NCBI GenBank assembly: GCA_008636095.1
Contig: VSJD01000316.1
Coordinates: forward strand, 1 to 10,527
Reading direction: 5' to 3'
Length of the DNA: 10,527 nt
Source of the DNA: Kiritimatiellota bacterium
GTDB taxonomy: Bacteria > Verrucomicrobiota > Kiritimatiellia > JAAZAB01
Shown: one piece after another, positions 350 through 10,112 of the stretch
Numbering within the stretch: the first letter of the stretch is position 1
Layout: every line of letters begins with the position of its first letter
The notes under the pieces: generated by a model
The model's database searches: none
Told to the model about the DNA's origin: nothing
The model's input: the letters and a program-made list of their open reading frames with translations, nothing else
Made by a program: the position numbers and the translations under genes

Positions 350-1498
350 TTACCTGGAATGCGCAATGACATTAACCAACCCGTTGTAATGACGGGTTTG
401 ATGTTCGCGCATTAATTTAGGAGTGGTGAGATCCTGCATGCAAGGCTTGGTCGGCGCATAGCCGTCCCACTCCACATCAAAGGCCGGCGCTTGGCGGGTT
501 GCATATACCCAATCCGGCAAACTGCCCGACGTACAATCGGCGTGCGCACCAAGCCATGCTCCTTGCGAAAAACCGGGGAGCGCCACCCCGCCTTCTTCGG
601 CAGGATACATGCCCGCCACATACCAATCTGCCAGTTGCCGGCATCGGACGGAATAATCATCATCACCGGCAGATCGTTGGGCCGACAAAAAAGCTCCTCC
701 GCATATTGAAGCCAACGCATGGTAGGAAAACACGGCTGATAATTCCGGAATATCCCGAATGAAATTAACTATTGCCCGTGTTTCAGGTTCCGAGGCAGGC
801 GCGCCGCCACGATAAGTTGCGCTTTCCGGATCGGTTGACCGCAACCCATAGCCCAAGTCATCATTCATCTCCTCCCAATCGGAATCGAAATTGCGATCGA
901 TATCCACGCCATTGGCATTCAAACGCAAGTAACACGGATATCCTTGAACCAATTTTTCTCTCTCGTCGGCGCCAACCGAAGGCAAGGCGGCTATGCCGAT
1001 ATAAGTCAACAAATCCTTCCTTTCCTTTATCATCCGTTCCAGCGCAGGAATAATGATTTCCGGTCCGGATTCGCCGGGATGAACACTGCCTATCAATGCC
1101 ACCATTTTTTTGGAATTCCCTGCATATATCGCTTCCAAATCATTGCCCCTTGCCGTGGCACCTACCTTCGCAATGCGAACGAGCGCCGGGTTATCTTCCG
1201 CCAGCGCCTTGATGCGCGCGCATATCTTGGAATACGGCCACCAGATTTCCGGACTACGGATACGCACCGCCGCAGGTCCGACCGGCTCATCACCTTCATC
1301 CGATGAAACCCAGTAGGCATATGTCTTCAGCGGTTCAACGTCTCTGTCAAAAAACTCGAACTTGCGCAATTTATCGGCCTCCAGCATGCCATCATATATC
1401 ATCTGCGCCTGGCGCCAATCAATACCGTCGAAATATTCATCATAATCAGCGCCAAATTGAAAATCCGGTTCATCTTTCCGGTAAACGCGGATTTTCAT
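350..1498 (-). CDS. M14-family zinc carboxypeptidase
   Basis: This predicted 382-residue metallopeptidase would cleave a C-terminal residue or amide-linked group. The M14 signature is complete. H140 and E143 in SVHPGESGPE, with H260 in FSYHA, match the three zinc ligands. NANGVDIDRNF (194-204) corresponds to the substrate-carboxylate-binding NGVDLNRNF block, with one Asn replaced by Asp201. E343 in FDVEWDGY fits the catalytic glutamate. An N-terminal segment of about 100 residues precedes the catalytic domain. No convincing signal peptide is seen, so a cytoplasmic location is likely. The chosen start (1498) has AAGGA seven bases upstream. An in-frame ATG at 1612, with AAGGAG eight bases upstream, would add 38 Arg/Ser-rich residues. 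The longest open frame, to 1768, would overlap the preceding gene. It is the last gene of the cluster. Confidence 0.88.
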   Translation of the reverse strand: MKIRVYRKDEPDFQFGADYDEYFDGIDWRQAQMIYDGMLEADKLRKFEFFDRDVEPLKTYAYWVSSDEGDEPVGPAAVRIRSPEIWWPYSKICARIKALAEDNPALVRIAKVGATARGNDLEAIYAGNSKKMVALIGSVHPGESGPEIIIPALERMIKERKDLLTYIGIAALPSVGADEREKLVQGYPCYLRLNANGVDIDRNFDSDWEEMNDDLGYGLRSTDPESATYRGGAPASEPETRAIVNFIRDIPELSAVFSYHALASICGGAFLSAQRSAGDDDYSVRCRQLADWYVAGMYPAEEGGVALPGFSQGAWLGAHADCTSGSLPDWVYATRQAPAFDVEWDGYAPTKPCMQDLTTPKLMREHQTRHYNGLVNVIAHSR

Positions 1499-1652
1499 CG
1501 TTTTTTCCTTGCCCTGCGCCGAAGCGAACAAGAGTGAACTCTTATAAAAGCTTAATCGCACTTTCGCCGCGCTCAAAACAACTCGTAACCTGCAGAACTG
1601 TTTGCGAGACATGCGCGCTACTCCTTCCTGCTTGATATTGTTCCCGTCACGG
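1499..1652 (-). promoter_or_regulatory. Gap before the peptidase gene with a 14-base palindrome and alternative ribosome-binding site
   Basis: This is the only large gap in the cluster (154 bases). It contains a perfect inverted repeat, AAGAGT-GA-ACTCTT, at 1530-1543. A TATAAG hexamer sits immediately before it in the direction of transcription, but I see no good -35 box. AAGGAG (complement of 1621-1626) lies eight bases before an in-frame ATG at 1612. The gap is therefore either a regulatory spacer with an operator-like site, or partly the coding start of the peptidase. The two readings exclude each other in part. Confidence 0.4.
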
Positions 1653-3683
1653 TCAGTCGGCATCTGAAGTAAATTTTTTCCTGTAACGATAAAACGCAAA
1701 ACGCCGTGGATCATGAATTTCGCAGGAAAACCGTCCGTTTTGCCGGTCATAGCCCGCGTTTTTGCCATCGCCGGCCAATAGTTCGAAATTATAATCAGAA
1801 AACAAAGGATGGTTCACGGCAAATGTTCCGCGGTCATCAGGAGTATTATCACGAAAGACGATGATAAAACCTTCGCCCGATTCAGAATCATGGGCTTGAA
1901 AACCGCTCCACGAAAAACCGTCAGGTTCTCCGCCAATTGGATAAATAATACAGCGATGGAGCGAATTCCGCGCCGATTTGTAGACCGTAATGATGCCGCG
2001 CAAATCGGCGGCGAATGATTGTTCCAGTCCGCTAGCCTCAAACCAGGCCATCGGATTAGCTGTCATGGCAACGGCAAAAAGATAGTCGGCCCGGTAATGA
2101 CAAGGCGCCAGCGGATCGTTCGGATAGAGCTGCGCATTACGTTGGCCGTTCAATACTTCAATTCGCAAACGGCGTGGATCAACGTATTTTGCTAATTGCC
2201 AAAGATTGCGCAGGGTGGTGTAGGGGTAATATTTTCTCCAATCCGTATAACGATTTTCCAGAAACAAAAATCCGTATGACATGGCCTGATAGTAGCCGGT
2301 TCGAACGCCGGCGGTGATGTCAATTTCGATCGCCGTTTCGCCGGCAGTACCCTGGACAACTGCATGCATGATCCGCAGGAGGTTGTCCTCGCCTTTCTTC
2401 GTATAAAAAGCGACGCCATCCAGCTTTACGTTGCCGAGGCCGAGATCCTTAACCCGCTTGAGAATCACTTCAACATCCCTTTGCCAATTGGCGTAGTCAT
2501 TCGTTTTATCGGGATTATACCACATACCGATTTTGAATCCGGTGGCACGGGCCATATCCGTCAATTTCTTTAACCCATTCGGGAATCGTTTCAGATTATA
2601 CTCCCAGTAATCGTCCTGGGCCCACTGGTTTTCCCATACGCCGCCGGGAATAACCGAATTGGCGGATGGTCCCTTTTGCCAGCCGTCAATAAAATAGAGG
2701 AAATCAATGCCGATGGCCTCGGCTGCTTTCATTTCCTTTAAATAAAACTCTTCGCAAACCCGTCCGTCCTTGTGCCGGTCGCCCCAGATGGAATGCCAGA
2801 TAACCTCGTCTTTTTCCGGACGATAGCGACGGAAGCGCCGCTGATAGGCGTGCAACGTTTCGATAAAACCGGGATTACCGCTACTATAAACCGAAGTTGT
2901 AAAGGGATAACTGCGCCGTTCATGTTCGGATCCGGCGCCGAGTCCGTGGAAACAGAATTGGTCGCGGCGGATCAGTAAATCATATTCCGTTTTGACAGGC
3001 CGGGCATGGGGTAGAGGCGCCTCTTTCAGGAAAATTAGGCCCGCGCCGGTCAGACGATTTTCCAATCGGAAAAGGTTGCCGCGCGCCTTGACTTCAGGAA
3101 AGTTGGTAAGAAGATGTTTTTCCTCGTGGACCAGATTGTCCTGGCTGTCAGATCCGTCCATGAGGCTGACCACGGTTAAATAATGGTGAACATATGGGAG
3201 ATGAAAAAGCTCCTGCAAATCGTTCACGGCCGCTTTTTGCTTTTGATCCGGAACGTTTTCCAAGCCCGTTGCCGTCTGAGTCCGGGATAGATCGCAATCC
3301 GGATTGCCTGGCCAGCCTTTGACGCTTAAAAAAGTGGATATGGCCGGGGTTTGCGGATATATTTTAATCTGAAAGGTCAACTCTCCCGTTTTAAAAAGAC
3401 TGATTACCCGCGCCGATAGATACGGTTCTTCGATACAGACGCTTTGCTCCACGGCCGTTTCCAGCCGCCAATTTTGCGTATCATCCGTAATTTGAATTTC
3501 AGGATATGGCGAGGGAACCTCGCTCGGCGCAATGAGCCATTCCATTGCCGTTGTTTTGTCGAATAACGACACGTTGTATAAAAATCCGTTTTCAATCCGC
3601 CAACTTCTTTCCATCCGCGAATTGCCAGCCACAAGCACATTGCCGGCAATGCGTACATAAGCGTCTTTGAGTGTTCTTTCCAT
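1653..3683 (-). CDS. GH36-like (clan GH-D) alpha-galactosidase-type glycoside hydrolase
   Basis: This 676-residue protein has the layout of GH36/melibiase-type enzymes, which hydrolyse terminal alpha-galactosides by a retaining mechanism. Residues 1-285 form a probable N-terminal beta-sandwich, about 290-560 the TIM barrel, and 570-670 a C-terminal beta domain. Barrel landmarks are FLYFIDGWQ (328-336), GFKIGMWYNP (382-391) and NVKLDGV (418-424). D422 of that last motif sits where the clan nucleophile is expected. D481 in ENRYTDW is a candidate acid/base, less certain because the usual Cys/Gly-rich acid/base block is not evident. There is no signal peptide, so it should act on imported or intracellular substrates. 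Its start lies 26 bases after the upstream stop, with GGAA nearby. A true alpha-galactosidase specificity is not proven; a divergent relative with another substrate is possible. Confidence 0.82.
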   Translation of the reverse strand: MERTLKDAYVRIAGNVLVAGNSRMERSWRIENGFLYNVSLFDKTTAMEWLIAPSEVPSPYPEIQITDDTQNWRLETAVEQSVCIEEPYLSARVISLFKTGELTFQIKIYPQTPAISTFLSVKGWPGNPDCDLSRTQTATGLENVPDQKQKAAVNDLQELFHLPYVHHYLTVVSLMDGSDSQDNLVHEEKHLLTNFPEVKARGNLFRLENRLTGAGLIFLKEAPLPHARPVKTEYDLLIRRDQFCFHGLGAGSEHERRSYPFTTSVYSSGNPGFIETLHAYQRRFRRYRPEKDEVIWHSIWGDRHKDGRVCEEFYLKEMKAAEAIGIDFLYFIDGWQKGPSANSVIPGGVWENQWAQDDYWEYNLKRFPNGLKKLTDMARATGFKIGMWYNPDKTNDYANWQRDVEVILKRVKDLGLGNVKLDGVAFYTKKGEDNLLRIMHAVVQGTAGETAIEIDITAGVRTGYYQAMSYGFLFLENRYTDWRKYYPYTTLRNLWQLAKYVDPRRLRIEVLNGQRNAQLYPNDPLAPCHYRADYLFAVAMTANPMAWFEASGLEQSFAADLRGIITVYKSARNSLHRCIIYPIGGEPDGFSWSGFQAHDSESGEGFIIVFRDNTPDDRGTFAVNHPLFSDYNFELLAGDGKNAGYDRQNGRFSCEIHDPRRFAFYRYRKKFTSDAD

Positions 3684-3709: not shown

Positions 3710-4762
3710 TCAGGTGTCAAAAGATTCAATGAGGTCAAGCACCTCAGACTTTGAAGAAGCGCTTGCCTGGCAATATAATTTATGGGTTTGATATTGTTCC
3801 CACAACTCGGACACAAGCTGCGCCGGTACATTGCGCAATTGGCCCTTGCCTAAATCGTCAATTCGCCGATATAGATGATCCCAATTCTCATTGTCGTGGC
3901 CCACACCGGGCACCCATTGGATGACACCAATCTTGGATATGGTGCAGAGCGATTCAAGATGAATAATGGAATTCACGCCGTCCAGGTGATACTCAACGCC
4001 GTCCCAAACCTCGATCTCCCGGCGCAAACTGGGGAGCGCGAATTCATTAAAATGTTCTTTGCCGATGTTATATGCGAAGTCGCATTGCGGCACATTGGTT
4101 GCGCCCGGACAATATAATCCATGGCGGGTAACCGACCCGTATTTATCGAATTCGAATAGGCGCTTAAATTCGTTGAAAACCGCATGATATGCCGTTGTTA
4201 TTTGATCCAAAGCATGATGAACCGCTTCCGGCGCGTCGTACAAGTCTAACAGAAGCCGCTCCGTGCCGCGGATGGCTGCCAGCGCGTCGAGATTGCCAAC
4301 CAACGTGGGTGCGCCGACAATCAATTTGCCATCGCACTTTCGTTTGGCAATTTCGATATAAGCAACCATTTTTTTCCACATTTCACTTTCCGGTCTGAAC
4401 CTGATATCCGTGTTGCCGATGTCATCTATAAAAGGAATAATCCGCGTGTCAAAACAATGTTTGTTTTCGGCTATTTCAACCTTTGCGCCGAGAAACGCGG
4501 CCAAAAGATTGGAGCAGAGCGATAGAATGAAATAAGGTACGGCTTCTCCGACAAAATCACAAGTTTCAGCACAAGCGAGCGCCTGGTCAACAACCTGTTC
4601 CATGTTATTAACAAAAGCCGCCCCAAACCCGGGCATTTTTTCGGGCGTGCATCCTTGCTTTGGAAAGACCGCGGCAATAGCCGGCCGCCGGGCTTTTCCC
4701 TCCCAAAACAAACGCCAGAAATATTGTGCCTCGGGAAAATCCCGTTTGTATTCAAGTTTCAT
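3710..4762 (-). CDS. URO-D superfamily protein (non-heme; methyltransferase-like), second paralogue
   Basis: This 350-residue protein belongs to the uroporphyrinogen decarboxylase fold group, which also includes corrinoid-dependent methyltransferases such as MtaA and CmuA. Landmarks are LAAFLGAKVE (87-96), a VGAPTLVGNLDAL block near 150-160, YHLDG (258-262) and IQWVPGVG (281-288). It lacks the N-terminal RQAGRY motif of heme-pathway HemE. The His-x-Cys zinc motif of MtaA-type enzymes is replaced by H259-L-D261. The heme role is therefore unlikely, and zinc-dependent thiol methylation is not supported. The start at 4762 has GGAAAAG just upstream, the same context as the peptidase gene; an ATG at 4774 would add MEKT. 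It differs strongly from the adjacent paralogue, so the pair may form complementary subunits or act on successive substrates. Confidence 0.85.
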   Translation of the reverse strand: MKLEYKRDFPEAQYFWRLFWEGKARRPAIAAVFPKQGCTPEKMPGFGAAFVNNMEQVVDQALACAETCDFVGEAVPYFILSLCSNLLAAFLGAKVEIAENKHCFDTRIIPFIDDIGNTDIRFRPESEMWKKMVAYIEIAKRKCDGKLIVGAPTLVGNLDALAAIRGTERLLLDLYDAPEAVHHALDQITTAYHAVFNEFKRLFEFDKYGSVTRHGLYCPGATNVPQCDFAYNIGKEHFNEFALPSLRREIEVWDGVEYHLDGVNSIIHLESLCTISKIGVIQWVPGVGHDNENWDHLYRRIDDLGKGQLRNVPAQLVSELWEQYQTHKLYCQASASSKSEVLDLIESFDT

Positions 4763-4808
4763 CGTCTTTTCCATTCTTTACCATAACTCCATTTAAAGCT
4801 TTTCCGGT

Positions 4809-5939
4809 TCATGATTGAGAATGCGCGTATTTATAGAAAGCCAATACGTTTTCCAGCGGCGTGTTTGCCATAATGGAACTGCTGGGGGAAAGAACCACGC
4901 CGCCTCCGCGTTGTTTGGACAAATCAACCATACGCCGGATGTCGCTGCGAATCTTTTCAGGGGTCGTGTACATGGTGGTCGTCACATTCACGCTGCCGAA
5001 CAGAAACGGCAATTTCCCGTTTCGACAGGGAGTCGCGGCGAGTGCATCCATATCCATCCCCTTGTCCTCCTCAAATCCCTGAAAACCGCCTATACCACAA
5101 TCAATTAGGTCAGGCAGGATGGGAAGAATATTGCCGTCGCTGTGCCAAAGCCAGTGGATGCCCGCCTCAATGATCGGGGCGATTGCGCGTTTCTGGTGTG
5201 GAAAATAGATGTCGTGCAGAATTTGAGGAGAGACCATTGGCCCATCATTTCCACAGATGTCTTCGCCGGAATAAATGATTGGCACAAGGTCATAATCCCT
5301 GATCGCCTTGGCAATTGCCTCGTTGCGCAGGCGGCTCTCTTCGCCGATAAAAGCGAACAGACGTTCCAACGCTTCCGGATAGAGCGCGTGCGCCATGAGA
5401 TAGTTTTCATATCCCATGACAGTGTACCACATCCACGGTACCCCCTGGCACAGATGGCCGGGAATGAACACGGCCGGCTTAAGAAATGCGCCCCAGCCGT
5501 CCAGTTCCAGCCACCGTAAATAAGTAATGTCGGGGTCAACATAGCGGCGCGCTTCGGAAACCGCAGGAACGGTTTGACAGAAATCACGGACATCCTCGGG
5601 AGACTTGAAGGCGCCATGCGTCCGACACCACTCGCCCGCCAGGTTACTGCGCAATCCGTCGCATATATTTATAGCCGCAGTAGGTCCGCACTGCTTGTCC
5701 TGCCGGTCTGGCAGTACGAACTGCAGGATTATATCCACATCCCACGCGTTCATTGCCAGGGCAAAAACTTCCTTGGGATGCGCGAGGTAGTCGCTGCGCC
5801 CGGTGATACGCTCAATGGCGGCGATCGTGGCATTCCCGCACTTGACCGGCAGGCGATCGGTCGGCTTGAACTCAACCGCATTGATCAGCCGCTCTCGTTT
5901 CTGATGGTACAGTTCGCGTTTTGTCATATGGTTTTTCAT
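4809..5939 (-). CDS. URO-D superfamily protein (non-heme; methyltransferase-like), first paralogue
   Basis: This 376-residue cytoplasmic TIM-barrel protein has the opening typical of non-heme URO-D relatives, with KRERLINAVEF followed by PTDRLPV (26-32). SGEDICGNDGPMVSP (224-238) is the conserved central block. WHSDGNILPILPDLIDCGI begins near residue 265, and GSVNVTTT lies near 315. HSD (266-268) replaces the HxC zinc motif of methylcobamide:thiol methyltransferases, and the HemE RQAGRY motif is absent. The substrate is unknown; methyl transfer or decarboxylation are family possibilities. The gene begins almost at the stop of the upstream reductase, implying coupled translation. The start is ambiguous among TTG 5945 (touching that stop), ATG 5939 and ATG 5927; GAGG lies 12 bases before the last. 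The C-terminus is intact. Confidence 0.86.
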   Translation of the reverse strand: MKNHMTKRELYHQKRERLINAVEFKPTDRLPVKCGNATIAAIERITGRSDYLAHPKEVFALAMNAWDVDIILQFVLPDRQDKQCGPTAAINICDGLRSNLAGEWCRTHGAFKSPEDVRDFCQTVPAVSEARRYVDPDITYLRWLELDGWGAFLKPAVFIPGHLCQGVPWMWYTVMGYENYLMAHALYPEALERLFAFIGEESRLRNEAIAKAIRDYDLVPIIYSGEDICGNDGPMVSPQILHDIYFPHQKRAIAPIIEAGIHWLWHSDGNILPILPDLIDCGIGGFQGFEEDKGMDMDALAATPCRNGKLPFLFGSVNVTTTMYTTPEKIRSDIRRMVDLSKQRGGGVVLSPSSSIMANTPLENVLAFYKYAHSQS

Positions 5940-5945
5940 CCTCAA

Positions 5946-8279
5946 TTATTTCCCAACCGGGCAAACCTGAAGGCATTTTTCAACGATCGTATCGGTGTGG
6001 CAGGGTGCGCGATAGCCTGTTACCTGAAGCGGGTCTTTTTGTGAAAGATATTCCTGGATCTTATCTTCGGATATTTCATCGGGAACCGGAATGCCGGGCG
6101 TCTTCCATCCGAGGCACTTTTGGCCTTCCTCGGGAATCATCCCCAAAGACCTGGCCCAGCGGCAACGGACCTCATTTCGAACAAACACTTCACAACCCGC
6201 AATATTTTCCAGAGTATCCTTGTTCAAAGCCTTGACCGGACATGCTTCGGCGCATTTGCCGCAGCGCAGGCAAAGAGCGGCGCTATTGCCGGATATGCGG
6301 ATCGGCAATTCCGCGGTTGTCAGTACAAAAACGAACTTGTGCCTCGGTCCGAACTCCGGTGTCAACAACAGGCCGCTCCGGCCCAATTGTCCAAGTCCGG
6401 CTGCAACGGCCAATGGCGCATTGGCCCTGGGATCGGGATGCCCCAGCTTGGCCCATTCGAATTCCCAGTACGGTGAAATAGTGCGGAATGAATTGAGCGT
6501 GCAGTCCGCCAGCGGCAAGGCGCGGTGGCCTTCGGCTTCAAGCCGGGCGGATAAATCATGGGCCGTCCACAAAAGTTCCCGCAAAGTCTGATACTGCAGA
6601 AAGCTGTAAGTGGTTGCGTCCTCCGAATCCTGATTTGCCGCCAGTTCCACGGTCCTTTTTGAAAATCCAGCCAGAAGAACAATCAAAGAACGCGCGCCCG
6701 GAAGGACAGCGGAGAAATCGAGCACGCCGGGTATTTTTGGCAAATTATCAACCCTTGCCACCCCGGCCTTGTCAACGCCCCGCAAACATGATGGGGACAG
6801 CAAATCGGCTTTTGTTGCATTAACGACATTCAGCAGCTCAGTCCGCGCGGCTAACGGCGCCCGGCAGATAACGCCACAGAAAATCATTCGGGATATTCCG
6901 GCCATTCCGTTCTGCGCGCCGGCGGTCATTGATTGTTGTTCTCTTTGCACGCCGGTCTCGCCGCGGGCCGACACCGCATAACGTATTGTTCGCGGTAAAG
7001 ATTCTGCACCGGCCGGCGCAACAACCTTTGCGTTATCCGCATCAACGGTCATGTCATCCCACCCGGCTCGCGCCTGGGCAAGCGCGGATAATGGCGTCCA
7101 ATCCTGCATGGCCTCAAAGCCAAGATCGTCAAGATAAGCCGCGATATCGTAGGCGCCGATACTCAAACGCACCTTGGTTGTGGCGGAAAGATATTCCGCG
7201 TTGTCATCAAGGACCCGATACAAGGGCATCTTGCGGCCAATGGATATCAACCACGCGAAATTTTTGAAAAGACCGTCCGCCGGATAACCGGCCGGCAAAT
7301 TAATTTCAGCTTTGTTAAACTCGGACAAGGGGCGTATCACCAGGCGGTCTATGCCGTTTACCAGAGCCATCGTCTTGATTTTTTCCAGCAATTCTTGGGT
7401 AGAAACGCTAACTTGCGCTTTTTTCCTCCGCGGTGCGCGCGTATATTTTCGGTCCCAGTAACGGATGTCCCTGGCCATGCAAAAACGAAGACATGATCCG
7501 AACTCGCCCCCCACGCGCCTTACGCCATCCCGAACGGCCTGATATAATGTTTCCTCATTTACCTTTTCATGCCTGCCAAGCTGGTCCATGTCCAATGCGA
7601 ATTGTTCGCCCCACAGACAGCGCCAACGGTTCAGCTTGGCATATTTATAAATCTTGTCTTCAATTATTACCTTGTCCTCCCCGCTCTCCAGCAATAAATC
7701 GCTCCTGAAGTTATGACCGGGGCAATGTTTCGCGCACATTTTGCATCGGTCGCAAAGCGCTGGGCCATCGTAAAGAGGGTCCGCCTCCAACGCCGCGGAG
7801 GTTATTACCGAAACAAGTCTCTGGCGCGGACCATACTTGGGCGACATGAACATGTTGTTCCAGCCGAATTCGCCTAACCCCGCCGCCACGGCCGCATGGC
7901 GATGCGAAAACGATGCTGTATTTGTGGTGGATATTTCCTTGAAAGGCCGGTGCCGCCAGAAACCCGTGCAGGGAAAAGGAATCGCCTTATAACCGGACTG
8001 CTCAAGAAAATCAGCCATGCGGCAACTCATCGTGTCCAGTTTTGGTATCATGCCGATCTGGAACGGTCCCGCATAATTGCTGTTCGGCTCGCCACCCCAT
8101 TCCACGGAGGCATCCGGATGATGGATACCCATGACTATGACCGACTTTGCTTCCGGCAGGTGCGCCTGCGGAGTCAACATCCGCGGAGCGTTCTGCCAGC
8201 GCGAAACCGGCGCTATACCCGCCAAATCAGCGCCAAATTCCTTGGCCTTGTTTTTAATTAATATGGTCATGTCTTTCAT
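5946..8279 (-). CDS. Multi-module 4Fe-4S reductase of the QueG/reductive-dehalogenase superfamily
   Basis: At 777 residues this is about twice the length of its relatives and is built from internal repeats. Module 1 (about 1-285) has AVAAGLGEFGW (130-140), KYGPRQR, and a ferredoxin motif with C176, C179, C182 and C186, plus C221, C263 and C267. A middle segment (about 300-400) resembles only the N-terminal half of a module and has no cysteine. Module 3 (about 475-777) has AVAAGLGQLGRSGLLLTPEF (624-643), cysteines C670, C673, C676 and C680, then C706, C722, C760, C769 and C773. Known relatives bind cobalamin and two 4Fe-4S clusters and perform reductive cleavage (epoxyqueuosine reductase, RdhA). 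No Tat signal or membrane segment is seen, so respiratory dehalogenation is unlikely. The start has AAAGGA eight bases upstream. The gene follows its single-module relative by 12 bases. Confidence 0.85.
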   Translation of the reverse strand: MKDMTILIKNKAKEFGADLAGIAPVSRWQNAPRMLTPQAHLPEAKSVIVMGIHHPDASVEWGGEPNSNYAGPFQIGMIPKLDTMSCRMADFLEQSGYKAIPFPCTGFWRHRPFKEISTTNTASFSHRHAAVAAGLGEFGWNNMFMSPKYGPRQRLVSVITSAALEADPLYDGPALCDRCKMCAKHCPGHNFRSDLLLESGEDKVIIEDKIYKYAKLNRWRCLWGEQFALDMDQLGRHEKVNEETLYQAVRDGVRRVGGEFGSCLRFCMARDIRYWDRKYTRAPRRKKAQVSVSTQELLEKIKTMALVNGIDRLVIRPLSEFNKAEINLPAGYPADGLFKNFAWLISIGRKMPLYRVLDDNAEYLSATTKVRLSIGAYDIAAYLDDLGFEAMQDWTPLSALAQARAGWDDMTVDADNAKVVAPAGAESLPRTIRYAVSARGETGVQREQQSMTAGAQNGMAGISRMIFCGVICRAPLAARTELLNVVNATKADLLSPSCLRGVDKAGVARVDNLPKIPGVLDFSAVLPGARSLIVLLAGFSKRTVELAANQDSEDATTYSFLQYQTLRELLWTAHDLSARLEAEGHRALPLADCTLNSFRTISPYWEFEWAKLGHPDPRANAPLAVAAGLGQLGRSGLLLTPEFGPRHKFVFVLTTAELPIRISGNSAALCLRCGKCAEACPVKALNKDTLENIAGCEVFVRNEVRCRWARSLGMIPEEGQKCLGWKTPGIPVPDEISEDKIQEYLSQKDPLQVTGYRAPCHTDTIVEKCLQVCPVGK

Positions 8280-8291
8280 TAAGATTATCCT

Positions 8292-9323
8292 TTATTCCTG
8301 ATCCGCCTTTCCTCCGCGCGCATCGCGAACGATCCCCTTTACCAGCCGGGCCTTATTGACGGCGCGTTTATCTTCAGAACGCGCGGTGCTGTATTTATTC
8401 GTAAAATTTCCGTCCAACAGGCCGCGTTGTTCCAAGTGCGCCAGGCATGCCCGATAGCACCCCTTGGCGCCGCAATGCGCATAGGACCGTCCCAATATTG
8501 ATACCATGGAAAACAAAGGATGCGGATGTTTCCTGTTCATCTCCGTGACGGCCGCCATTCCCAAAACGTAATCATCCGTGTCATCTTTCGATTTTTTGCG
8601 CAGTTCGGCATACCTGGCTTCAATATCGGCAGTATCGAAATTGTCCGGAGCGCAGGGATGCGTTTCCGCTAATCCGCCGTGATGCGCCACGGTGCAACGA
8701 TACATATCCACTTTGGCATGCCTGATTTCCCGACCGTCAAGATTGATGGCCACGGATTCTTTATTCGATATGGCTTTCCCCGGGCAGGCGCGGGCGCAAG
8801 CCATGCATTTGTCACAAAGATTGTCAAGTTGCAGAGGATCGGACGGTAAATCGGCATCTGTCAGCACGATTCCGAATCTCTGCAGTGGCCCGAAACGTTT
8901 GGATAAAAACACTTTTGACCAGCCAAATTCCCCCAGTCCCGCGGCCACCGCTGCGGTGCGATGGCACATGATCGGCTCCTGATGAGGCGCCCCGGTCCAT
9001 TGAATTACAGGAACACCCGAACAGCCATGGTCCTCCAGCCAACAGGCAACTTTTTGTTTTAAATCCCGCATGAACTGTTCATTGATTCCGCCGTAACCAT
9101 GCGCATTATATGGAATATAGCAATTGTTATCCAACGACTCCATCAATCCCCTCAAAACCCGGATACCCATCACCACCACTGTTTTAACTTTGGGATAAAT
9201 ATTACGCGGATGATATTCTTCCGGCGCGTCATTGAACCTGTCAATATTGGCAAAACCGAGCATGTCTGCCCCGTTTTTCAATGCATACGACCTTAATTCT
9301 TCCTTAATTTCATTTGAATTCAT
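8292..9323 (-). CDS. Single-module 4Fe-4S reductase of the QueG/reductive-dehalogenase superfamily
   Basis: This 343-residue protein shows the family order. The N-terminal half is cobalamin-domain-like (GADMLGFANIDRF, then VKTVVVMGI near 46-54). TAAVAAGLGEFGW (123-135), RFGPLQR (143-149) and a ferredoxin motif (C170, C173, C176, C180-P) follow. The second cluster probably uses C210, C284, C289 and C293, but its CxxxxCxxxCLAHLE form departs from the usual CxxxCP. It is closest to module 1 of the next gene, sharing VAAGLGEFGW. Relatives reduce substrates through corrinoid and Fe-S chemistry; here the substrate is unknown. There is no Tat signal or membrane anchor, so it is cytoplasmic. It is not expected to be housekeeping QueG, given the tandem context and divergent cluster. 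The start is firm, with AAAGGGAGG 11 bases upstream. It is the first structural gene after the regulator. Confidence 0.86.
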   Translation of the reverse strand: MNSNEIKEELRSYALKNGADMLGFANIDRFNDAPEEYHPRNIYPKVKTVVVMGIRVLRGLMESLDNNCYIPYNAHGYGGINEQFMRDLKQKVACWLEDHGCSGVPVIQWTGAPHQEPIMCHRTAAVAAGLGEFGWSKVFLSKRFGPLQRFGIVLTDADLPSDPLQLDNLCDKCMACARACPGKAISNKESVAINLDGREIRHAKVDMYRCTVAHHGGLAETHPCAPDNFDTADIEARYAELRKKSKDDTDDYVLGMAAVTEMNRKHPHPLFSMVSILGRSYAHCGAKGCYRACLAHLEQRGLLDGNFTNKYSTARSEDKRAVNKARLVKGIVRDARGGKADQE

Positions 9324-9356: not shown

Positions 9357-10112
9357 TCAGGTTCCAAATAAATCAGTTTCAATCCGGTGGACGGCATCAG
9401 AGAGCCTTCCGGATAAACGTTTTATATAACCGCGCTTATCCTTTATTTTCAGCAGATTGATGTTGGCAAATGCAAGACCGGCAATCGCGGGCTTTCCGAT
9501 GGCGACGGCGATTGTCGTTGATGCAGGATTGTGTGTGACCATGGAATACCCATTTCTTATGGTGTCGTTAACACGGCGATTTAATAAATTCATCTCATCT
9601 TTACTTAATCGATCGGGACCTTGAAGCATTAGACGTTGCGCCATGCTTCGATCCATTGATGCCAAAATAGCGGTCCCTATGCTCGATTTGAATGCCAGGA
9701 ACGGCTTGGAAGCGCCGATTCCATTCTCCAATGTGTTTCGATTATCCCCATGAAACAGATAGCAGACATGCTTGCGCCACAGCACGCCCAGCGAGACGAG
9801 CAGATTTTCATCCATTAACGTACGGATGTATGGCAAGGCACAGGCCAGCAGGCGCGAGCTTTGCAGGCTTTGGGCGGCCAGAATGTGAATGCCCGGGCCG
9901 GCCTGATATTTGCAGTCCGCAGTCTTTTCAGCCAAACCAATGGCGGCGAGCGTACCCATCAAACGGTTAACGCCGGTATGTTCAAGATTAAGTCTCCGCC
10001 CAAGTTCCCGAGTGCCGATGGGACGCGCCTCGAAAATCATGGTTTGCAGGCATAAAATACCTTTAATCAGGCTTTGATTAGGTTGCGCCGGAAGCAGTCC
10101 TTTAGTTCTCAT
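9357..10112 (-). CDS. IclR-family transcriptional regulator
   Basis: This 251-residue protein has the normal IclR length and two-domain plan. An N-terminal winged helix-turn-helix (about 13-70) includes IGTRELGRRLNLEHTGVNRL, with the recognition helix near 44-55. The effector-binding domain follows (about 80-245), with GASKPFLAFKSSIGTAILA near 132-151 and the late IRNGYSM and STTIAVAIG blocks of the family. IclR proteins commonly control catabolic operons in response to small organic acids or aromatics, as repressor or activator, and often control their own gene. It is first in the cluster, 33 bases before the first reductase gene. There is no Shine-Dalgarno before the ATG at 10112, and the promoter sits so close that the transcript may start at the ATG itself. 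An overlapping operator-like inverted repeat suggests autoregulation. The effector is unknown. Confidence 0.93.
   Translation of the reverse strand: MRTKGLLPAQPNQSLIKGILCLQTMIFEARPIGTRELGRRLNLEHTGVNRLMGTLAAIGLAEKTADCKYQAGPGIHILAAQSLQSSRLLACALPYIRTLMDENLLVSLGVLWRKHVCYLFHGDNRNTLENGIGASKPFLAFKSSIGTAILASMDRSMAQRLMLQGPDRLSKDEMNLLNRRVNDTIRNGYSMVTHNPASTTIAVAIGKPAIAGLAFANINLLKIKDKRGYIKRLSGRLSDAVHRIETDLFGT

Follow-up and report, generated by a model that had tools for sequence, protein, structure and literature searches.

The class III B12 enzymes comprise the reductive dehalogenases (RdhA) and the epoxyqueuosine reductases, as summarised in the available part of PMC7585037. In the epoxyqueuosine reductase QueG, the distal iron-sulphur (Fe-S) cluster is held by C184, C187, C190 and C243 and the B12-proximal cluster by C194, C210, C236 and C239, and the clusters of both QueG and the dehalogenase PceA lie near the protein surface (accessible text of PMC4646009). 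In the PceA2B2 complex, a long distance separates the two active sites and no cofactor lies in between (PMC10624902, in the portion available). Here we describe P0001, a 777-residue protein encoded on contig VSJD01000316.1 of a Kiritimatiellota bacterium (GCA_008636095.1), of which we analysed a 10,527-nucleotide stretch, hereafter the window. P0001 contains two complete QueG/RdhA-type modules (residues 1–285 and about 500–777), each with a corrinoid-type domain and a ferredoxin region. We consider it fairly probable that the protein is a soluble class III (QueG/RdhA-kind) corrinoid/Fe-S reductase, in which module 1, a vestigial domain and a more RdhA-like module 3 act on a polar-metabolite substrate. 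The gene and its parts, all on the minus strand, are as follows.

5946..8279, minus strand: open reading frame of the tandem corrinoid/Fe-S reductase-like gene P0001 (777 aa)
7785..8279, minus strand: module 1 corrinoid-type (nitroreductase-fold) domain, residues 1–165, the best-conserved part of the protein
7425..7784, minus strand: module 1 ferredoxin region, residues 166–285, with invariant C176, C179, C182, C186, C221 and C267 and a cysteine at 263
6855..7415, minus strand: the middle, a vestigial domain of corrinoid type that lacks a ferredoxin part, residues 289–475
6306..6782, minus strand: module 3 corrinoid-type domain, residues 500–658, with a tyrosine cluster (558–563) and a GPR-x-K/R motif (K648), as aligned to PceA, NpRdhA and QueG
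5949..6305, minus strand: module 3 ferredoxin region, residues 659–777, with C670, C673, C676, C680, C706, C769 and C773, and R710

The two full modules are homologous. Profiles of residues 1–300 and 452–777, built from 83 proteins (A1), were aligned by hhalign over 247 columns with a probability of 99.9 and an E-value of 2e-31 (hhalign E-values apply to one comparison, not to a database). Fold predictions covered residues 1–777 and 286–777, and the AlphaFold2 model of the 777-residue chain had a predicted local distance difference test score of 91.1 and a predicted template modelling (TM) score of 0.94. Together, the models, fold matches and motifs identify in P0001 the RdhA plan, with a dicluster ferredoxin placed after a corrinoid-domain fold. 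The original prediction, made from the DNA letters and translations, had proposed two modules sharing one fold, and the profile and fold comparisons agree with it; we found neither a middle segment unrelated to the corrinoid domain nor halves of different fold.

The same architecture was found in other genomes. A homology search identified 235 proteins, and among the best 120 listed, query included, 118 are 726–811 aa long, follow the same plan and align over nearly their full length. P0100 (685 aa) and P0119 (544 aa) were excluded from the family alignment, and all column counts given below for these 118 proteins include the query. Where sources name them, family members are “epoxyqueuosine reductase” or “hypothetical protein”. 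On genome contigs we located 30 loci, in metagenome-assembled genomes assigned to five phyla (Planctomycetota, Bacillota, Lentisphaerota, Spirochaetota and Verrucomicrobiota), those of Bacillota belonging to Clostridia, Oscillospiraceae and Desulfotomaculum. Almost the whole length is matched in 29 of these loci, and one ends at a contig edge. Locus L049 (matched residues 2–774, no frame above 700 aa in open reading frame calling) and locus L058 (contig end) were omitted from tandem counts. Within the phylum of the window, 16 of 194 genomes, the source genome included, match at 1e-40. A plasmid search with module 3 gave no match. The source assembly is fragmented (357 contigs, 87% complete), as would suit an assembly or annotation artefact fusing two genes; this explanation is ruled out by the many relatives with the same plan and retains practically no chance of being correct.

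The middle of the protein had been taken for a half module lacking any cluster. A degenerate domain of corrinoid type, with no ferredoxin, is indeed present, but the models predict that residues 289–475 fold as a whole nitroreductase-type domain. Residues 288–410 match the N-terminal hundred residues of module 1 (93%, E 3.4e-7 by hhalign) and more weakly with module 3 (72%, E 3.3e-5). After removal of insertions, the score of the middle against module 1 was 38.5 (77%, E 2.1e-5), compared with at most 20.6 for 40 column-shuffled controls, 14.6 for the reversed control and 18.1 for the later part of module 1. No stand-alone form of the middle was detected at an E-value of 0.001 or better among 529 candidate proteins of 0.55–1.75 times its 196 aa. 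In the middle, cysteine conservation is fair at best and limited to C472 (87/118), so the domain appears to have no Fe-S cluster of its own; lacking a set of conserved cysteines, it is an unlikely route for electrons, and the internal electron relay suggested originally finds no support. A related possibility, that the middle keeps a flavin as nitroreductases do and serves as an NAD(P)H entry point, and thereby as an internal relay, fits its fold type and is in our view highly improbable. Because NpRdhA also has a vestigial corrinoid domain, the middle is less strange than first claimed. The NpRdhA precedent, the PceA2B2 layout and the lack of cluster cysteines favour a pseudo-dimer or scaffold over an electron relay. 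The likeliest role of the vestigial domain, by analogy with NpRdhA, is to pack as a partner, and the pseudo-heterodimer put forward in the original prediction is plausible. The middle and module 3 superpose on NpRdhA at 12–13 Å only.

By motif, both modules keep seven of the eight canonical cysteines, namely all four distal and three of the four proximal ligands. Neither therefore has the eight cysteines that provide two [4Fe-4S] clusters in RdhA. In module 1, C176, C179, C182, C186, C221 and C267 are present in 118/118 proteins, and the seventh cysteine is C261 in 84 and C263 in 34, the window protein having the latter; four proteins carry an extra cysteine at 260. In module 3, C670, C673, C676, C680 and C706 occur in 118/118 and C769 and C773 in 117/118. 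Both ferredoxin regions (5949–6305 and 7425–7784, minus strand) are without a cysteine matching QueG C236, a B12-proximal ligand, and at the corresponding position of module 3, 766, 117/118 proteins have V, I or L and one has a gap. The single-module relatives at loci L043 and L061 likewise show no QueG C236 equivalent, in a comparison of cysteine spacings only, absolute offsets being shifted. Among other candidate ligands, C755 is found in 76/118 proteins, and this residue or C472 of the middle could supply the fourth proximal ligand. Covariation of C261 with C755 and of C263 with G755 was considered as a sign of an inter-module contact and set aside, as shared descent may account for it: in a 66-sequence tree drawn from the 118, the first trait changes a single time and the second four times, leaving one independent pair. 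At locus L063 (2814–5141), the tandem lacks the terminal C-x3-CP present in the closely related L059 tandem, through a frame error or decay.

Outside the cysteines, the two modules differ in their conserved residues. Module 3 appears to have RdhA-like proton-transfer residues: K648 (K or R in 115/118) aligns with NpRdhA K488 and PceA R305, and R710 (111/118) with NpRdhA R552. Candidates for the equivalent of NpRdhA Y426 are Y558 (112/118), the residue at 560 (tyrosine in 84 proteins, phenylalanine in that of the window) and Y563 (115/118). In module 1, R154 (118/118) is the counterpart of K648 by motif, E225 (118/118) occupies the place of R710, and helix 77–94 of the window protein contains no tyrosine. 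Instead, module 1 has a set of its own, with H53, D56, K80, D82, H110 and R111 in 118/118 proteins and C104 and H126 in 116/118, and this charged set suggests a different step or substrate.

Module 1 is also the better conserved of the two, with a mean pairwise identity of 0.63 versus 0.47 for module 3 (0.43 for the core of the middle), 104 of 285 versus 54 of 293 columns conserved at 90% or more, and a tree length of 13.3 versus 18.7 over the same 22 loci. Such asymmetry could mean that only one module is catalytic, the other being an electron-entry module that kept its fold and takes no substrate, in either assignment. The higher conservation of module 1 and its lack of the Tyr-Lys/Arg-Arg set of module 3 speak for this explanation, whereas the GPR-x-R/K motif and seven cluster cysteines survive in each module, and module 3 retains the RdhA-like positions; on balance we regard a single catalytic module as somewhat unlikely.

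Under the two-module reductase that we favour, each full module would hold two Fe-S clusters and one base-off corrinoid, the latter beside the proximal cluster. Electrons would enter via the clusters and reach the cobalt of the same module, and the reduced cobalt would then attack or reduce the substrate. The vestigial domain would pack as a partner, so that one chain does the job of the PceA dimer. The substrate, probably a polar metabolite and perhaps a product of sugar or glycan breakdown, would be reductively cleaved or deoxygenated. Domain plan, module homology, the family and its conserved residues are shown by the data above; we infer corrinoid binding, the redox chain and the packing role from these comparisons, and the nature of the substrate (a polar metabolite, perhaps sugar- or glycan-derived) more weakly. 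A bolder proposal is that the tandems form a distinct class III branch, with two dissimilar corrinoid centres on a single chain working sequentially on one substrate in the non-halogen reduction of sugar- or glycan-derived molecules, and with catalysis also involving the B12-proximal clusters, through an open iron site or through C472 of the middle as a ligand; we hold this to be rather doubtful.

A tree of 74 rows, comprising 22 of 35 tandems with single-module and QueG proteins, placed all modules 3 in one clade (support 99) and all modules 1 in one group with weak support (36). Single-module and QueG rows fell on one side, also with weak support (8). With the latter two values this weak, module 1 may or may not have originated from single-module proteins. 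Branching within modules 1 and within modules 3 is alike as judged by eye, and the simplest reading of the sequences would be one old fusion followed by spread. The source genome also contains a separate 318-aa QueG-like frame, which groups with Escherichia coli QueG in the tree.

The window carries six further long genes.

9357..10112, minus strand: IclR-type regulator, upstream of the tandem (Pfam IclR_C E 0.0018 and NCBIfam PcaR/PcaU/PobR E 4e-10, both below cut-off)
8292..9323, minus strand: single-module relative of 343 aa, upstream of the tandem across a 12 bp gap
4809..5945, minus strand: UroD or MtaA-CmuA-like methyltransferase-type gene, downstream (PF01208 E 8.3e-15; TIGR01463 E 7.1e-9, below cut-off)
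3710..4774, minus strand: second, diverged UroD-like gene (PF01208 E 0.0023, below cut-off)
1653..3683, minus strand: melibiase-like glycoside hydrolase (PF02065 E 0.00055, below cut-off)
350..1768, minus strand: M14 zinc carboxypeptidase (PF00246 E 5.1e-20)

All seven genes, that is regulator, single module, tandem, two UroD-type genes, hydrolase and peptidase, are co-oriented, with no more than about 35 bases between neighbours from the regulator through the hydrolase. They likely form one transcript, which probably includes the melibiase-like gene along with the tandem. For the gene at 4809..5945, the ATG directly after the listed TTG is the likelier start, and the M14 gene, the listed start of which overlaps the melibiase-like gene, probably begins further in. 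An Rfam scan of the window gave nothing above the gathering threshold. Promoter-like sites (16 versus 11.4 ± 3.6 in shuffled sequence) and terminator-like sites (21 versus 13.9 ± 3.4) were not used as evidence.

The two UroD-type genes directly downstream raise the possibility that the tandem reductively reactivates their corrinoid methyltransferases, standing in for Ram/RACE activases. The source genome (G000) has a large methyltransferase-type gene set, with 43 URO-D (PF01208) stretches in 3.8 Mb. However, in 38 related loci, several of them short, no open reading frame had the UroD proteins of the window as best hit at 1e-4; no corrinoid carrier protein was identified among the seven scanned window genes; and type 1 mlp clusters carry Ram/RACE activases instead (PMC10418091, in the part available). 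With no recurrence across these loci, we keep the methyltransferase partnership only as a weak rival and judge it improbable.

The 343-aa neighbour matches TIGR02486 (RDH) at E 3.7e-12, below the cut-off, and is 37% identical to P0001 over residues 9–222, that is, to module 1. Its homology search returned 175 proteins, including itself, and single-module relatives are named by function, as epoxyqueuosine reductase or ferredoxin, in some sources. Eight of 34 other tandem loci (L030, L031, L042, L043, L044, L059, L061 and L062) also carry a single-module gene nearby on the analysed stretch, in some cases directly next to the tandem. The single module of the window finds a match at 1e-15 in all 15 other tandem genomes of the phylum, one that the tandem itself can trigger. 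The source genome encodes a second, diverged tandem adjoining another single module of 319 aa; the latter was hidden in open reading frame calling, which retains only the longer frame where two overlap, but was seen in other searches. Two genomes of the same phylum, G108, itself among those 15 tandem genomes, and G208, contain 19 and 14 single-module matches, respectively, of which three and two lie in tandem frames, and runs of two to three neighbours point to an expanded family. Adjacent single-module pairs of unequal length occur at L062 (5520–7561), L066 (7423–9378), L044 (12257–14241) and L065 (138–2089), and are possible two-subunit counterparts of the fused tandem.

In 14 of 28 genome-contig tandem loci, the gene just upstream, on the opposite strand, belongs to one AraC-like cluster, and a Gfo/Idh/MocA cluster is present in seven loci (in both cases Pfam was run on one representative). 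Sugar-type neighbours appear in one or two loci each: a sulfatase (L036), GH31 (L051), GH3 with PfkB (L060) and LacI (L061, L064). An IclR-type gene lies beside the tandem also in L030, L031, L059, L060 and L063. An SBP_bac_10/N_methyl (pseudopilin-like) cluster is found in L034 (4008–4697), L039 (12402–13166) and L043 (14581–15768), with Pfam run on the L039 protein only, and another protein cluster lies within some genes of the tandem in L035, L045, L047 and L054, its L035 member being a glycyl-radical enzyme (PFL-like) by Pfam. Several scanned neighbours had no Pfam match, and no halogen-related gene was identified among the neighbours scanned. As the neighbours are mixed and several are off-theme, the sugar link of the family is a lean rather than a result.

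Several observations weigh against the proposed class III reductase. P0001 scored 93 bits over two stretches against TIGR02486 (cut-off 160.35) and 59 bits against TIGR00276 (QueG; cut-off 200). Since each module lacks one proximal cysteine, the proximal cluster may be altered or absent in both. For the middle plus module 3, 322–330 residues aligned with NpRdhA at a root-mean-square deviation of about 12–13 Å, which is no rigid superposition, and the end-to-end Foldseek comparison of the full model with NpRdhA gave about 25 Å and a TM score of about 0.24; the packing may therefore differ from that of NpRdhA. Neighbours vary widely, and an efflux protein, a peptidase M28, PTA and PLD lie outside any sugar theme; nor do the UroD genes recur, as described above. 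Cobalamin riboswitches, scored on at most 58 candidates per genome, showed no link with the tandem: they were found in 11 of 15 tandem genomes and in 10 of 15 without a 1e-40 match, and above the family cut-off in 8 and 10, respectively.

Taken together, the tandems are a conserved family from genomes assigned to five phyla, in which each chain carries two complete modules that differ in their conserved residues. If corrinoid is bound, they would point to an additional type of chemistry in anaerobes, and a dimer-mimicking domain could be studied beside two redox modules in one chain. Among known systems, CblC and CblD (MMACHC and MMADHC) share the nitroreductase-type B12 fold, CblD being the same-fold partner; they have no ferredoxin and function in B12 handling rather than metabolite reduction, and their likeness to the tandem comes from fold matches of the predicted models. 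The single-module protein of the window differs from the tandem in having one module, a C-x4-C-x3-C end and eight motif cysteines. QueG has a different Tyr/Asp motif, and in relation to it each tandem module has one cysteine fewer and P0001 falls below the family cut-off. The respiratory PceA forms dimers of single-module chains, in contrast to the one chain of the tandem. No description of a double-module QueG/RdhA protein was found in the portions of the open-licence literature searched, where the second complete module is thus without a counterpart. The nitroreductase-type fold of class III enzymes is present in the tandem, where base-off cobalamin would lie beside a [4Fe-4S] cluster. The catabolic NpRdhA, like JtRdhA, has a vestigial corrinoid-type domain directly before the catalytic corrinoid domain and ferredoxin, the same order as in residues 286–777 of the tandem, and by profile alignment and fold this catabolic RdhA trait is present in P0001. 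The positions of NpRdhA K488 and R552 are kept in module 3, and the tandem differs from NpRdhA by its score below the RDH cut-off and by the extra complete module in front.
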